A DNA stretch of 64,000 nucleotides, taken from contig NZ_CP054918.1 of NCBI RefSeq assembly GCF_013364195.1, forward strand, positions 7,830,563 through 7,894,562, given 5' to 3'. Positions 5,539 through 64,000 of the stretch are shown in pieces (positions within the stretch are counted from its first letter, which is position 1; every line of letters begins with the position of its first letter). Source of the stretch: Streptomyces sp. NA04227. GTDB taxonomy: Bacteria > Actinomycetota > Actinomycetes > Streptomycetales > Streptomycetaceae. The translations under genes were made by a program, and so were the position numbers. The notes below the pieces were generated by a model. It was not told the origin of the DNA, did not search any database, and was given only the letters and a program-made list of their open reading frames with translations.

Positions 5539-6079
5539 GGTGATCTCCTGCTGTGAACGTGCGGTGTTCGCTACCGGTGGATGCGGACCATGCCTTGCAC
5601 GCCGGTGACTGCCGTGGGCGCCGGTGTGCGGGCGAAGCTCCCGAAGGTGCGACCGATTCTGGGTCGCCGGGTCCCGCGATGTCCTTGGCACCGCTGGCAC
5701 GGTCGCTTGGCCGTCCCTGCCCGGCGGTCCCCTCGCGACTGCCGACCTCCACACCCCTTTGAGTCACTTCTGTCCCATTTGGAGGAATTGGCCAATTCCC
5801 CCCTTGGGGGTCGATTGGCTAGGAAGTGGCGGAATTCCGGTGTACGGGTGTGGCGCTTTTGGTTCCACCGAAACGTAGTGAGTCGCGTCACATTCACCTG
5901 CGTCCACCTCCGTGGAGAGGGCGGTCATTTCCCTTCAGCGAAGGGCGAGTTGATTTCTCTTCCGGGAAGCCTTCCCGGGTGGCCGGGCGCTTTTCCGGAT
6001 CACTCGCTTTGCGTTCCGTAATTCAGGCCTTGTTTGTTCTCGAGTTCCTCGCCTACGGTCTCGGCAATCCCGGGTGGAA
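5539..6079. promoter_or_regulatory. Divergent region between P450 and wall-hydrolase genes
   Basis: About 540 non-coding bases, lower in GC than the flanks. It holds a perfect 16-bp palindrome at 5784-5799 and a CCCCCTTGGGGG element just after it. The leader of the wall-hydrolase transcript should start in the right half, ahead of the riboswitch. No gene is credible here. Confidence 0.5.
5784..5799. promoter_or_regulatory. Perfect 16-bp palindrome, candidate operator
   Basis: GGAATTGGCCAATTCC lies 246 bases upstream of the P450 start in the divergent region. The A/T core and symmetry suit a dimeric repressor site. No cognate regulator is adjacent. Confidence 0.4.
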
Positions 6080-6247
6080 CGCCGAATCCTGCCGCCGCCC
6101 GGAATCCGCGCCCCCTACGTGGACCAGGCAGGAGCGGGGAACCCGGAAAGTCGCCGATTCGCCAAGCGGAACGGCTCGGGGTGAAGTCGTGCGGTAGTGC
6201 GGCCGGGTAACTCCACCCGAACCCGACAGCTCACCTCGCAGGCGGAG
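6080..6247 (+). promoter_or_regulatory. c-di-AMP riboswitch (ydaO/yuaA class)
   Basis: The leader of the LysM gene contains the conserved blocks of the ydaO/yuaA RNA in order: GCCGAATCCTGCC, GAGCGGGGAACCC, CTCGGGGTGAAG, CCGGGTAACTCC, CCCGAACCCGACAGCTC and ACCTCGCAGGC. It ends about 14 bases before the start codon and next to the GGAGGAGAGG ribosome-binding region. In actinomycetes this class senses cyclic di-AMP and typically precedes cell-wall hydrolase genes, where ligand binding switches expression off. Left boundary is approximate. Confidence 0.9.
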
Positions 6248-6261
6248 GAGAGGAAATCGCC

Positions 6262-37227: not shown

Positions 37228-37307
37228 CCGCCATAATCCGCACCGGGAAACCCTGTTACCGAACCGCCCCAGCACCAGCAGAGAATTCGTGGAAGGACTG
37301 ACCGACT

Positions 37308-37835
37308 ATGCCGGGCACGGAAAAGACTCCGCCCATCGCACTGCGCCGCGACGAGGGCGAGGCCATCTGGTTCCTCGATTTCCTCGCCATCATCAAGGGC
37401 TCGGCGGACACGACCAATGGCTCGGCCTCCGTCATCGAGCACGTCGGCCGACGCGGCTCCGGCTCGCCGCTGCACGTACACCGCCAGGAAGACGAATGGT
37501 GGTACGTCCTCGACGGCGAGATGACCTTCTGGGTGGCCGGAAAAATCATCGAAGCCCCCGCCGGTTCCTATGTCTTCGGCCCGCGGGAAGTCCCGCACAC
37601 CTTCCAGGTCAGCTCCGACGAAGCACGATTCCTGCATGTGACCGAACCCGGCGGATTCGACGGATTCACCCGCGCGATGGGCACCGCCGCGAGCTCGCTG
37701 GAAGTTCCGACCTCGGTCACGCTGCCCGATCTCGAAGAACTCGCCGCGACCGCCGCCAAGTTCGGTATCGAACTGCTCGGCCCGCCCGGAATTCCGCCCG
37801 CCGAGCCCGACGAGGCCACCCCCGGCACGAAGTGA
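37308..37835 (+). CDS. Single-domain cupin, possible dioxygenase
   Basis: This is a 175-residue cupin. Motif 1 is GSPLHVHRQEDEWWYVLDGE, with two His and a Glu as metal ligands; motif 2 is YVFGPREVPHTFQV, with the fourth ligand His. A helical C-terminal tail (LPDLEELAATAAKFGIELL) follows. Quercetin-dioxygenase-like cupins oxidise phenolics; others isomerise or only bind. It sits 80 bases after one P450 and 180 before another, so a joint oxidation step is likely. A second, unrelated-looking cupin lies at 45292 inside the THN cluster. Confidence 0.9.
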   Translation: MPGTEKTPPIALRRDEGEAIWFLDFLAIIKGSADTTNGSASVIEHVGRRGSGSPLHVHRQEDEWWYVLDGEMTFWVAGKIIEAPAGSYVFGPREVPHTFQVSSDEARFLHVTEPGGFDGFTRAMGTAASSLEVPTSVTLPDLEELAATAAKFGIELLGPPGIPPAEPDEATPGTK

Positions 37836-60144: not shown

Positions 60145-61218
60145 ATGACCACAGGAGCCACCACCCACCACACCAGCGACAACCCCACCCCCTCCGCACA
60201 CCACACCAGCCAAACCCTGCTCCAACACGTCGAACTCCGGCTACGCACCCTCCTCACCACCGAACGCGAACGATGGACCCAGGTGAACCCCCGAGCAGTC
60301 GTCACCATCGACGCCCTGGCCCACATGATCAACTCCGGCGGCAAACGCATCCGCCCCACCTACTGCCTCACCGGCTACCTCGCAGCGGGCGGCGACCCCG
60401 ACAACCCCGCCGGCGCCACAGCAGCAGCTGCAGCCCTGGAAATGCTGCACGCCTCCGCCCTCATCCACGACGACGTCCTCGACAACTCACACCAACGACG
60501 CGGACAACCAACCATCCACACACAACACACCGCACTGCACGAACAACAAGCCTGGCAAGGCGAACCCCGCCGATTCGGCGAAGGCGTCGCCCTCCTCACC
60601 GGAAACCTCGCACTCGTCTACTCCGAACAACTCATGGCCGACGCACCCACCACCGTCACACCAGAATGGAACACACTCCGATCAGAACTCATGATCGGCC
60701 AGTACATGGACGTCGCCGCAGCCGCCGAATTCTCAGCAGACCCCCAACTCTCCCGCTGGATAGCCCTCATCAAATCCGGCCGCTACACCATCCACCGCCC
60801 TCTCGTCATAGGAGCCAGCGCCGCAAACCGAGCCGACCTCGCCCCCGCCTTCGAAGAATACGGCGAAGCAATAGGCGAAGCCTTCCAACTCCGCGACGAC
60901 CTCCTCGACGCCGTCGGAGACACCGCAGACACCGGCAAACCAGCCGGCCTCGACCTCAGCCAACATAAAATGACACTCCTACTCGGCTGGGCAATGCAAC
61001 GAGACGAACACATCCACACCCTCATCACCCAACCCGGCCACACCACCGAAGAAATACGTGACCGCCTCGTCGAAACAGGCGTACCCAAGGACATCGAAAA
61101 GCACATCGCCAACCTCGTGGAAAGAGGCTGCAAAGCCATCACCGACGCCCCCATCCACCCCGTATGGCGAAGCCAACTCAAGTCCCTTGCGCACCAAGTG
61201 GCTTACCGCAACACGTAA
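60145..61218 (+). CDS. Prenyl diphosphate synthase of the meroterpenoid cluster
   Basis: This is a 357-residue class I synthase. Start ATG follows AAGGAG. Landmarks: INSGGKRIRPTYCLTGYLA, first Asp-rich motif ALIHDDVLDNSHQRRG and second FQLRDDLLDAVGDTADTG, both complete. It builds geranyl, farnesyl or geranylgeranyl diphosphate; chain length cannot be told by eye. As the last cluster gene it should supply the donor for the ABBA prenyltransferase encoded at 52514. Codon use shares the strong C/A bias of its neighbours; the bias ends at its stop. Confidence 0.93.
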   Translation: MTTGATTHHTSDNPTPSAHHTSQTLLQHVELRLRTLLTTERERWTQVNPRAVVTIDALAHMINSGGKRIRPTYCLTGYLAAGGDPDNPAGATAAAAALEMLHASALIHDDVLDNSHQRRGQPTIHTQHTALHEQQAWQGEPRRFGEGVALLTGNLALVYSEQLMADAPTTVTPEWNTLRSELMIGQYMDVAAAAEFSADPQLSRWIALIKSGRYTIHRPLVIGASAANRADLAPAFEEYGEAIGEAFQLRDDLLDAVGDTADTGKPAGLDLSQHKMTLLLGWAMQRDEHIHTLITQPGHTTEEIRDRLVETGVPKDIEKHIANLVERGCKAITDAPIHPVWRSQLKSLAHQVAYRNT

Positions 61219-61507
61219 CACCCGCCCCGGAAAGGGAAATAGGAGCGGGAACCGCGGCCGAGAATATCCAGAAAGAGAAATGGACGAAACGTCAACTCCC
61301 TGAAGAATAAAGCTATTTGATGTAAGAAGAATCTCGGCACGAACTGGGTTGATATTTCCCGTACTTGTCGAGGAGGGGATACCGATCTCCAGAATCGAGG
61401 AACAGCCGAGTGCCCCGCTGGCTGCTGCCAGCCTGAAGGTGACCGCGGAGCGGGCAGCTTCCAACTCCCTTAGCCACAAGCAAAGTTGCAGATAACAATG
61501 CAGCGAA
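61219..61507. other. AT-richer junction region
   Basis: About 290 bases without a gene. Composition changes sharply from C/A-rich to balanced and AT-richer (e.g. GAAGAATAAAGCTATTTGATG). It marks the right edge of the meroterpenoid cluster. Confidence 0.5.
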
Positions 61508-61660
61508 GGTGGTGAGTCGATCGCGGAGCTATCGACTCACCACCGACCGATCACGTGCTCCACGGAGTGGAGCACTCGGCCACGGAGTGGCCGACAGATC
61601 GCGGAGCGATCTGGACCGCCGCGTAGCGGCGGCGCGTCGTGTCTGCGGAGCAGACCGCGC
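61508..61660. repeat. Array of six adjacent triloop hairpins, telomere-like
   Basis: Six inverted repeats follow each other almost without gaps. Arms: 61508-61524/61528-61544 (17 bp, one mismatch), 61555-61563/61567-61575 (9 bp), 61576-61583/61587-61594 (8 bp), 61595-61602/61606-61613 (8 bp), 61616-61622/61626-61632 (7 bp), 61641-61646/61650-61655 (6 bp, with further pairing outside). Every loop is three bases: GGA in five, GTA in one. The stems differ in sequence. Streptomyces chromosome and linear-plasmid ends carry such series of short palindromes with three-base purine-rich loops. Tandem stem-loops near mobile elements are another possibility. Confidence 0.85.
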
Positions 61661-61803
61661 GCATCCAGAACCACAACCGACCACCCCCTGCCGCCGCACA
61701 CTGACTACGCAGCAGAGTGCCCAGCAGCCCGACTCAGCACATCAGGAACTGGCCGCGTTCATCCGTACGCGGGTGAGGACGTTCACGTGTACGCCGACAC
61801 CTG

Positions 61804-62121
61804 GTGAAGGGCATACCACCGATCCGCTCCCGCCGCGGGCGACGGCGACGCAGGCCGGACAAGCTTCACGCAGACAAGGGATACGACTACCTTCACCTGC
61901 GGCGATGGCTACGAGGCCGCGGCATCAAGCACCGCATTGCCCGCAAGGGGATCGAGACCTCGCAGCGGCTCGGCCGCCACCGCTGGACCATCGAGCGCAC
62001 CATGTCCTGGCTCGCCAGCTGCCGCCGACTCCACCGCCGCTACGAACGCAAGGCCGAGCACTTCCTTGCCTTCACCAGCCTTGCCTGCACCCTCATCTGC
62101 TACCGCAGACTCAAGACAACT
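61804..62121 (+). pseudogene. IS5-family transposase, C-terminal remnant
   Basis: An open frame (to 62148) encodes only the end of an IS5-type DDE transposase: DKLHADKGYDYLHLRRWLRG, IARKGIETSQRLGRHRW, TIERTMSWLASCRRLHRRYE and LAFTSLACTLICYRRL. The N-terminal two-thirds, including the first catalytic Asp region, are absent, and the sequence just upstream is unrelated. The last Asp/Glu of the catalytic triad (ERT) is retained. It cannot be an active transposase. It lies between the hairpin array and the small unknown gene. Confidence 0.88.
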
Positions 62122-62144
62122 CCATGCGTTGTGAAAGCTGCGCC

Positions 62145-62480
62145 ATGATGGCCGGCGTGAGCAAAGAGACTGCGCTTGAGGCGGTAGCACGCCTGTACCA
62201 GGAATTCATGGGATTGCCCTTCCCTCCCAGGCTGGCTGGAGCGGACCGGGCCGGCTTCGACCTGGTGATGCTGGACTCCGACACCGCAGCCTGGATTTTT
62301 ATCTGGATCAAGAACGGCGGCGAGCTCGAAACGCGAGGTCGGAGCGGTCTGCTTCGCTGCATCGCCCGCCTGGACCAGGTCATACCTGTACTCAGCGAAG
62401 AGGACGGCCCTGAGTACTGGCACCGCCTGCGCGAGATGGCTCACCTTGTCGCGGTTACCTCACAGATAGCCACCAAATGA
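62145..62480 (+). CDS. Small protein of unknown function next to the integrase gene
   Basis: This is a ~111-residue protein. Candidate starts are ATG 62124, ATG 62145 and GTG 62157 (VSKETALEAVARLYQEF); I use 62145. The body is acidic and helical with a Trp/Ile-rich strand (DSDTAAWIFIWIKNGGELE) and LDQVIPVLSEEDGPEYWHRL. There are no Cys-pair, HTH or membrane features, so it is not an evident excisionase. It stops 11 bases before the integrase start, so co-transcription is likely. Function unknown. Confidence 0.6.
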   Translation: MMAGVSKETALEAVARLYQEFMGLPFPPRLAGADRAGFDLVMLDSDTAAWIFIWIKNGGELETRGRSGLLRCIARLDQVIPVLSEEDGPEYWHRLREMAHLVAVTSQIATK

Positions 62481-62491
62481 GATGACCCCTT

Positions 62492-63772
62492 ATGACCACG
62501 CCGCGCCCCGCCGCCTCCCACCGCACCCGCACCCGCTCCCGCGCCAACGGAGACGGCACCATCTACCAGCGCAAGGACGGCCGCTGGGAAGCCGCCGGAT
62601 ACGTCCTCGCCCCCGGCAACACTCGCAAGCGCGTCCGCGTCTACGGCACAAGCCGGAAGGAAGCCCTGGGCAGGCTCACCAAGAAGATCGCCGCGAGCAA
62701 CCTCGGGCTGCCCGTCGCAGTATCCGACTGCACCGTGAGCGACTACCTGACGTACTGGCTGAACAGCATCGCCGTCCACCAGGTCCGGGAGATCACCCAC
62801 ACCCGCTACGCCGCCTGCATCCGTCTCCACCTCATCCCCGGCCTCGGCGCGAAGAAGCTCGCCCGGCTCACCGCCCGCGACGTCCGCACCTTCCTCGACC
62901 ACCTCCGCGTCGCCTGCCAGTGCTGCGTACATGGACGGGACACCGCCCGGCACTCCTGCTGCGCCATCGGCCAATGCTGCGACAAGAGGCTCTCGCCACT
63001 GACCGTGACCTACGTCCACTCGGTCCTCAAGTCCGCACTTGAGCACGCCGTCCGCGAAGACGACCTGCCCCGCAACGTCGCCCGAAACGTCAGGACCCCC
63101 GCGCCCCGCCCCCGGCGCTTCAAGCCCTTCACCGCGAGCGAGGCCCGGCAGTTCCTCCAGGCCGCCAGCGGCGACCGGCTTCACGCGCTGTACGAACTCG
63201 CCCTGCGCACCGGCCTCCGCAAGGGCGAACTCCTCGGCCTGCACTGGGAAGACCTCGACCTCGACGCGGGAACCGCCGCCATCCACCGCTCCCTCCAGCG
63301 CACTCACACCGGCGGCCTGACCATCCTGCACACCAAGACCCGCGCCTCTGAACGCCGTATCGCACTGCCCACCGAATGCATCAACTCTCTCAAGATCCAC
63401 CAGGAGAGGCAGCAGGAAGATCGTCAGGCTGCGGGATCACGATGGGCGGACAACGGTCTCGTCTTCACCACCCCGGTCGGCAGGCCCTTCGATCCCACCA
63501 ACCTCACACGCCGCTTCCGCCACCTCCTCGAACGCGCCGGCCTTCGAGTGATCCGCTTCCATGACCTCCGGCACTCGACCGCCACCCTCCTCCTGGAGCA
63601 GGGCATCGACCTCGTCGTGATCAAGGAGTTGCTCGGCCACGCCCACATCGGCGTGACGGCCAGCGTCTACGCCCACGTCCGACTCCGCCTCCACCGCCAA
63701 GCCATCGGCAGCCTCGGCGAAGCTCTCAGCCCTGGCAGCGACGGCCCCGACTTCCCACCCGTCGTCCGCTGA
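62492..63772 (+). CDS. Tyrosine recombinase/integrase of an integrative element or phage
   Basis: This is a 426-residue integrase. An Arg/Lys-rich AP2-like N-terminus (GDGTIYQRKDGRWEAAGYV) and a SAM-like core-binding domain (LTYWLNSIAVHQVREITHTR) precede the catalytic domain. The catalytic residues are visible: Arg in LRTGLRKGELLGLHWEDL, HxxR in RFHDLRHSTATLLLEQG, the later His in LLGHAHIGVT and the Tyr nucleophile in SVYAHVRL. An insert between the two parts, CQCCVHGRDTARHSCCAIGQ followed by CC, has seven Cys and looks like a zinc site seen in some actinobacterial integrases. No tRNA or obvious att duplication was seen beside it. Confidence 0.93.
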   Translation: MTTPRPAASHRTRTRSRANGDGTIYQRKDGRWEAAGYVLAPGNTRKRVRVYGTSRKEALGRLTKKIAASNLGLPVAVSDCTVSDYLTYWLNSIAVHQVREITHTRYAACIRLHLIPGLGAKKLARLTARDVRTFLDHLRVACQCCVHGRDTARHSCCAIGQCCDKRLSPLTVTYVHSVLKSALEHAVREDDLPRNVARNVRTPAPRPRRFKPFTASEARQFLQAASGDRLHALYELALRTGLRKGELLGLHWEDLDLDAGTAAIHRSLQRTHTGGLTILHTKTRASERRIALPTECINSLKIHQERQQEDRQAAGSRWADNGLVFTTPVGRPFDPTNLTRRFRHLLERAGLRVIRFHDLRHSTATLLLEQGIDLVVIKELLGHAHIGVTASVYAHVRLRLHRQAIGSLGEALSPGSDGPDFPPVVR

Positions 63773-63856
63773 CGTTGCCGTCACCGTTGCCGTCAAACGC
63801 CCGTAGAGGCCCCGCTGGAAAACGGCGAATTCAAGGTGTCGTGGCAACACCGCTGG
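63773..63856. other. Junction between integrase and IS30-type element
   Basis: Holds GTTGCCGTCACCGTTGCCGT just after the integrase stop, a place where attP cores often lie. A GGTGTCGTGGCAACACC element at about 63835-63851 is probably the terminal end of the IS30-type element. Confidence 0.4.
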
Positions 63857-64000
63857 TCATGCGGCTGTTGTGAGGAGCTTAGCGAGGCGCTCGGCTGGGG
63901 TTTCCCAGCCGAGCGTTTTGCGTGGACGGCCGTTGAGTTCGGTGGCGACGGCGTCCAGGCGCTCACGGCTGTGCCGGGACAGGTCGGTGCCCTTCGGGAA
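63857..64000 (-). CDS. IS30-family transposase, C-terminal end (rest beyond window)
   Basis: The leftward frame is open to the window edge and stops at 63857. The 47 visible residues include FPKGTDLSRHSRERLDAVAT, ELNGRPRKTLGWETPAERL and AKLLTTAA. NGRPRKTLGWxTPAE is the diagnostic end of IS30-type transposases. Whether the gene is intact cannot be seen. The element borders the integrase gene, adding to the mobile character of the right edge. Confidence 0.9.
   Translation of the reverse strand, partial: FPKGTDLSRHSRERLDAVATELNGRPRKTLGWETPAERLAKLLTTAA

Follow-up and report, generated by a model that had tools for sequence, protein, structure and literature searches.

The closest described relatives of the sequence reported here are the Streptomyces telomeres of the Sg2247 class. 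The published account (PMC8743542) gives S. griseus 2247, S. rimosus ATCC 10970 and the plasmids pSCAT and pSHJG1 as examples, with loops of GGA, GAA or GTA and conservation that is best at the 3' end; the proteins of the class are reported there as unknown. According to the same account, two strains with chromosomal Sg2247 ends are without tap and tpg, and strains with one Sg2247 plasmid end do carry these genes. Telomeres with GGA and other GNA loops have been described in a soil population, and the GtpA and GtpB genes are named as candidates for GGA-capped telomeres in that work (PMC7205883). The term "pseudo-telomere" is also in print, PMC8743542 citing for it work on SCP1 and SLP2.

The DNA analysed here, referred to as the window, comprises the last 64,000 of the 7,894,562 bases of a single contig (G000:C1:7830563-7894562); the position in the full replicon, which the initial annotation had wished to see checked, is thus the right-hand end of 7.89 Mb. 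Its array resembles the Sg2247-class telomeres in its row of stem-loops, its GGA and GTA loops and its strongest conservation at the 3' end, but in this assembly it does not stand at an end and is joined to IS21 DNA at its last base. It shares with the pseudo-telomeres of Streptomyces linear replicons a telomere-like sequence in an internal place; as far as the use of the term in PMC8743542 goes, it may differ from the published cases in a terminus that is complete to the last base and in having an IS21 fragment as partner. The archetypal Tap/Tpg Streptomyces telomere is likewise a row of small hairpins with 3-base loops, but the present array belongs to another sequence class, and its genome has no Tpg match and no Tap match above the cut-off. 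The telomere class and the term pseudo-telomere are already known, and what is unusual here is the very clean junction; among the titles listed for the open-licence literature, none was on internal telomeres, telomere fusion or internal copies. The features, in window coordinates, are the following.

61423-61507, + strand: inner portion of the telomeric region; 72% identity between 61423-61648 and bases 3-244 of the S. cellulosae linear plasmid NZ_CP109223
61508-61662, + strand: Sg2247-class palindrome array of six GNA triloop hairpins, from structure and identity to replicon ends
61508-61544, + strand: hairpin 1, 17-base arms, 94% complementary with a mismatch, GGA loop
61555-61575, + strand: hairpin 2, 9 bp stem, GGA loop
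61576-61594, + strand: hairpin 3, 8 bp stem, GGA loop
61595-61613, + strand: hairpin 4, 8 bp stem, GGA loop
61616-61632, + strand: hairpin 5, 7 bp stem, GTA loop
61641-61655, + strand: hairpin 6, 6 bp stem, GGA loop; 61632-61662 when extended in the fold
61616-61662, + strand: terminal 47 bases, the most conserved, with the GTA hairpin and the terminal GGA hairpin; 100% to pSCAT (NC_016113) bases 1-47 and to both ends of contig G051:C1, with covariation and fold
61662-61663, no strand: junction of the last telomere base with the IS21 fragment, no visible overlap, from alignments with the internal chromosomal copy and with replicon ends
61663-61800, - strand: IS21-family end fragment of 138 bp, transposase-proximal end, interrupted within the transposase gene at 61663, with the IS terminus at about 61800; 99% copies
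61804-62148, + strand: C-terminal part of an IS5-family transposase remnant (PF01609, PF13586; NF033580 at 92.3 bits, cut-off 110)
62492-63772, + strand: tyrosine integrase of 426 aa (PF00589, PF14659), flank of the mosaic
63824-64000, no strand: end of a 1.3-kb insertion sequence inside which the contig breaks; 100% copy at C1:7419945-7420121, 99% copy at 2368264-2368440

Judged by its sequence, the array is a complete Streptomyces telomere of the Sg2247 class, intact to the last base, and it is so identified because it is identical to literal replicon ends, not on structural likeness alone. When 72,556 plasmid records were searched for distant similarity, literal ends of linear Streptomyces plasmids were matched. 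Those of S. cellulosae were matched over about bases 3-244 (72%), bases 1-47 of pSCAT (NC_016113) are identical to 61616-61662 (47/47), and two S. hygroscopicus plasmids match over bases 1-47 at 97.9%, one of them, CP003276 of S. hygroscopicus 5008, being taken to be pSHJG1. With 61603-61662 as query, the best place was terminal and outward-facing, at most 109 bases from the end, in 37 of 50 plasmid records; it was inward-facing at 0.9-3.6 kb from the end in 11, inward at 15 kb from the end in one and outward at 0.7 kb inside in another (NBC_01483), a tally that counts the best place per record (73 places in all) and includes near-duplicate records. This comparison with known telomeres had been proposed in the initial annotation, and it bears out the resemblance to a Streptomyces telomere claimed there.

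Genome assemblies gave the same picture. A 34-base pattern, which ends 8 bases short of the terminus, had 26 matches in 84,980 named species genomes, three strains giving two matches each. Twenty-two of these lay at most 8 bases from a contig end and nine at exactly 8 bases, eight of the nine ending CCGCGCGC, as in the window; the remaining four lay 20, 32, 32 and 963 bases from the contig end. The canonical telomere end is thus TCTGCGGAGCAGACCGCGCGC; every base of it is present in the window, up to 61662. Terminal sequence was present at both ends of the single contig G051:C1 (7,574,085 bases) and of the 72-kb contig G128:C1. Across the genus sample, at least 58 of 392 genomes were matched at E 0.001 when two first-look candidates were scored per genome.

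The telomeric unit starts near 61423, as placed by homology to the plasmid end, and its terminal base is 61662; the span first given, 61508 to 61660, was right as to place and short at both limits. The array points outward, towards the right contig end. The last gene before it, at 60145-61218, encodes a polyprenyl synthetase (PF00348) and ends 290 bp short of the hairpins.

The six near-contiguous hairpins were found where they had been described, with five GGA and one GTA triloops, each flanked by C and G. The DNA fold of 61480-61690 has an energy of -68.5 kcal/mol; 200 dinucleotide shuffles averaged -41.0 (sd 3.4), which puts this stretch at z = -8.1, and none of the 200 was as low; the last bases of the array, GCGCGC, are paired in the fold. 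The computed folding check that had been suggested was also positive for 61515-61662 on both strands (z -6.3 on the + strand, -7.2 on the - strand). The + strand of the 64-kb window holds 30 perfect triloop hairpins with a stem of at least 6 bp, five of which have the C-GNA-G form, and all five lie inside the array (the mismatched hairpin at 61508-61544 is not counted among them); the - strand of the window holds no perfect C-GNA-G hairpin with such a stem. The densest 160 bp of the window is the array itself, with 5 triloop hairpins, whereas of 40 first-order Markov sequences, each 64 kb long, 30 had 2 and 10 had 3 in their densest 160 bp. The near-contiguous array of six hairpins is well beyond chance.

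Pairing was further examined in a 27-row alignment of terminal pieces (26 distinct), hand-picked for variety from terminal and internal places. Eight of the 19 pairs were changed on both sides, 96.4% of cells were paired and 21 cells were doubly changed; none of 500 shuffles reached any of the five pairing and covariation measures, and sliding the partner dropped pairing to 19-48%. The rows being related and picked, these figures support the structure and are not a calibrated test. They support a selected hairpin structure, the palindromes being kept by paired changes across replicons.

In the window, therefore, similarity to class members over the terminal bases, terminal stem-loops closed by triloops of the GGA/GAA/GTA set and palindromes kept by paired changes occur together. 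The array does not stand at the replicon end in the assembly, where 2,338 bases follow 61662; because of these bases it is classed as a pseudo-telomere, as long as the extension is not a chimera, and it is an internal telomere sequence provided that the assembly is right. The statement that the array is internal thus holds for the assembly, at about 2.3 kb from the right contig end.

The telomere is followed by a mosaic of mobile-element pieces. Bases 61658-61801 align with G000:C1:5876611-5876754 at 99.3% over 144 bases, and since the sole mismatch is at 61662, true IS21 identity starts at 61663. An ORF fragment at this chromosomal copy matches NF033546 (transpos_IS21) with 47.1 bits, under the cut-off of 160; this transposase fragment beside the internal copy, together with an IS-like outer end at about 61800, is the reason for assigning 61663-61800 to an IS21-family end. 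A second copy of the fragment lies at 37293-37422 (130 bases, 99%). In the left arm, at G000:C1:37293-38300, the IS21 end fragment adjoins a piece 75-79% like the right-end insertion sequence, a similar mixture of fragments. The IS5 remnant and integrase that had been placed distal to the array were recovered there by their Pfam domains (PF01609 and PF13586 at 61804-62148, PF00589 and PF14659 at 62492-63772). The insertion sequence at 63824-64000 is presumably of the IS30 type, going by a motif; its copies at C1:7419945-7420121 and 2368264-2368440 share 1,345 bp at 99.9%. The start of the extension, CCAGAAC, is like the CCAGAAG found after some inward copies, a likeness put down to chance, the extension being the 138-bp IS21 copy.

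Among 295 genus genomes, with two candidates scored in each, there was no match spanning both sides of the junction; telomere-side matches reached at most 23 bases past it (G159, G212, G240) and IS21-side matches began at most 9 bases before it. Pieces of 61200-64000 occur in many plasmids (393 records with a match), and among the matches listed, which cover 30 of the 393 records, no record had one place covering 80% of this stretch.

The explanation that we regard as probable is that an intact telomere was joined at its last base to a broken end inside an IS21 element and is now an internal pseudo-telomere, presumably without activity. As the class would lead one to expect, replication of the live end would have left the + strand of the array as a 3' overhang, which would have folded into a row of GNA-capped hairpins and served in protein-primed patching at the terminus. 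Once the terminal protein was lost, a bare terminus would have remained, and this may then have been joined to a break within the IS21 element, with Ku-dependent end joining as the likeliest route; the genome carries a Ku gene (167.4 bits). Afterwards the chromosome arm would have gained further DNA, or the chromosome would have closed on itself. The initial annotation had offered a fossil end left by linear-plasmid integration. A fossil end does agree with the favoured reading, as one of linear-replicon fusion; integration of a plasmid in mid-chromosome does not, the array lying in the outermost arm with the telomere facing outward. Provided that the join is real, the junction seems recent, since the IS21 piece is 99-100% identical to copies at two other chromosomal sites, and end joining at a protein-capped bacterial telomere could be tested on it. 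It would suggest a start of telomere turnover in Streptomyces in which the old end is kept whole and buried by joining, not resected.

The genes for end replication were sought as had been recommended. Searches with two Tpg proteins gave no match in this genome; in the second of them 74 of 101 genomes had a match, and this one was among the 27 without. A search with the Tpg family model matched no control and so is uninformative. Tap gave two partial matches, of 56.8 and 44.4 bits against a cut-off of 600 that none of 14 controls passed. A Tpg match was lacking in 4 of 6 genomes with strong terminal matches (G000, G021, G022, G037, G051, G088, by a threshold set after seeing the data) and in 23 of the 95 others (Fisher p 0.042). 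When five weak matches were added (G007, G016, G058, G078, G081) the figures became 5 of 11 and 22 of 90; the link between strong terminal matches and the lack of a Tpg match is weak and is not relied on, and the tap- and tpg-bearing strains with one Sg2247 plasmid end in PMC8743542 speak against it. A genome with an Sg2247-class telomere and no Tpg match is a place to look for the priming proteins.

The main alternative, possible and in our judgement somewhat unlikely, is that the chromosome has its live right end at 61662 and that the following 2.3 kb is an assembly or library chimera, a piece of an unassembled replicon having been ligated or scaffolded to the natural end. The join sits at the exact terminal base, where a ligation chimera of a natural end would also put it, and the contig stops, 2.3 kb past the junction, within a repeat, the kind of place in which assembly errors accumulate. 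There are repeats on both sides of the extension, namely the IS21 fragment with its two other copies and the insertion sequence copy at the contig break. Tails of 12, 24, 25, 61 and 61 bases follow the same terminus in L070, L063, L069, L039 and L098, respectively. In the S. melanogenes plasmid NZ_CP108296 (L121) the tail of 108 bases, like the last 50 bases of L120, resembles a Nanopore adapter, and it is possible that these two deposited linear plasmids have untrimmed ends. Because of the five assemblies with short tails and the adapter-like tail, bases after the terminus are not always biology. Against a chimera, the window is without N bases, the genome is otherwise one contig, and the best 40 of 350 candidates in the assembly included no contiguous second copy of what follows the junction, so that the partner needs an unassembled source; this absence speaks against a simple chimera with this chromosome.

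A special case of the joining of an intact telomere to an IS21 break, and an improbable one, is a circular chromosome: the right telomere would have fused with a broken left arm, and the assembled contig would have been opened at the insertion sequence repeat. The left contig end is without such a telomere, so that the chromosome may be linear or circular: the first 20 kb of the contig holds no C-GNA-G (or complementary) triloop hairpin of at least 6 bp, and comparison of these 20 kb with the last 14.5 kb revealed no terminal inverted repeat, only one 60-base match at 80%. The contig does break inside an insertion sequence copy, and PMC5124664 describes end-to-end fusion and circularisation by illegitimate recombination for Streptomyces. 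The first 20 kb, however, has no match to the insertion sequence at the contig end, so the contig ends do not simply abut.

Arrays of this kind also occur inside other replicons. Twenty-one of 22 distinct internal places align to the telomere's last base, the sole exception, in G259, stopping 13 bases short; two pairs of loci are counted as the same place, the weak second arm of L051 is left out, and the loci were fetched by a terminal-motif match and are in part related, so that the figure is a lead and not a rate. The 22 tails, that of the window included, have 18 distinct 8-base starts. Twelve of the 13 internal best matches in the plasmid records face inward, 11 of them at 0.9-3.6 kb from the end. 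That intact Streptomyces telomeres have repeatedly been joined to other DNA exactly at the last base is a tentative proposal, which we rate as unlikely on these loci. If true, linear replicons would regularly gain and exchange ends by joining at a whole telomere, with either end joining or the terminal protein as the means, and the window would be a case that faces outward and has an IS21 break as its partner. With such inward copies, two inverted telomeres can enclose the outermost block, which then resembles a mini linear element fixed by its inner end.

Internal Sg2247-like arrays alignable to the last base were seen in L009, L010, L030, L050, L055, L056, L057, L097, L100, L103, L105, L111, L112, L113 and L115; those of this group with a known end face inward, 0.9-4.7 kb from it. 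In eight alignable replicons the outer and inner arrays match over the terminal 32-58 bases only, and L009, L113 and L115 have an outer end that differs in type from the inner array. In one plasmid group (L009:1922-2926, L113:2171-3349, L122:2192-3370, and the arrays that follow these stretches) an inward array lies between a DUF932 gene and the start of the next gene; with similar surrounding sequence, it is read as inherited and may have a function. The terminal motif also occurs deep in large contigs, 2.6 Mb from the end in L104 (G389:C1:2609185-2609229) and 0.4 Mb from it in L095 (G339:C1:8513088-8513134). In S. sennicomposti (L051:940-1003) a complete terminus stands head to head with an inverted array lacking its last hairpin, which is either a fusion or an assembly fold-back.

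The right end of the NBC_01483 plasmid (NZ_CP109439, L120) is like the window in having an outward Sg2247-type remnant, which lies 0.7 kb inside and has a new end beyond it. It differs in that its remnant is truncated; its new end resembles the right terminus of the 50,410-bp S. lividans 1326 plasmid, with 72% identity of the last 0.7 kb over the aligned part. We take that plasmid to be SLP2 and its end archetypal. On this alignment, the NBC_01483 plasmid reads as an old end buried under a new one.

It is very improbable that the array merely resembles a telomere and serves some other function as a hairpin-rich RNA or DNA element, such as a terminator series, an attenuator or a binding array: it folds well on both strands, and other replicons have related internal arrays, some of them a short way before the start of a gene, but its terminal sequence is identical to literal replicon ends that stop at the same base and no Rfam match at gathering thresholds falls on it, and the structured RNA offered as an alternative in the initial annotation is accordingly set aside. 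A dispersed repeat, also named there as a refuting case together with an intact IS end, is ruled out by the single copy in its own genome (all 40 first-look candidates scored), and elsewhere the array mostly marks ends. The hairpins are not an IS terminus: the IS21 part starts past the terminal base and has its outer end at about 61800. A phage element is rejected too, as none of 50,697 phage records matched at E 1e-5. Scanned in full against Rfam at gathering thresholds, the window has one match, far from the array, a c-di-AMP riboswitch (ydaO/yuaA leader) at 6070-6257 with 62.3 bits.
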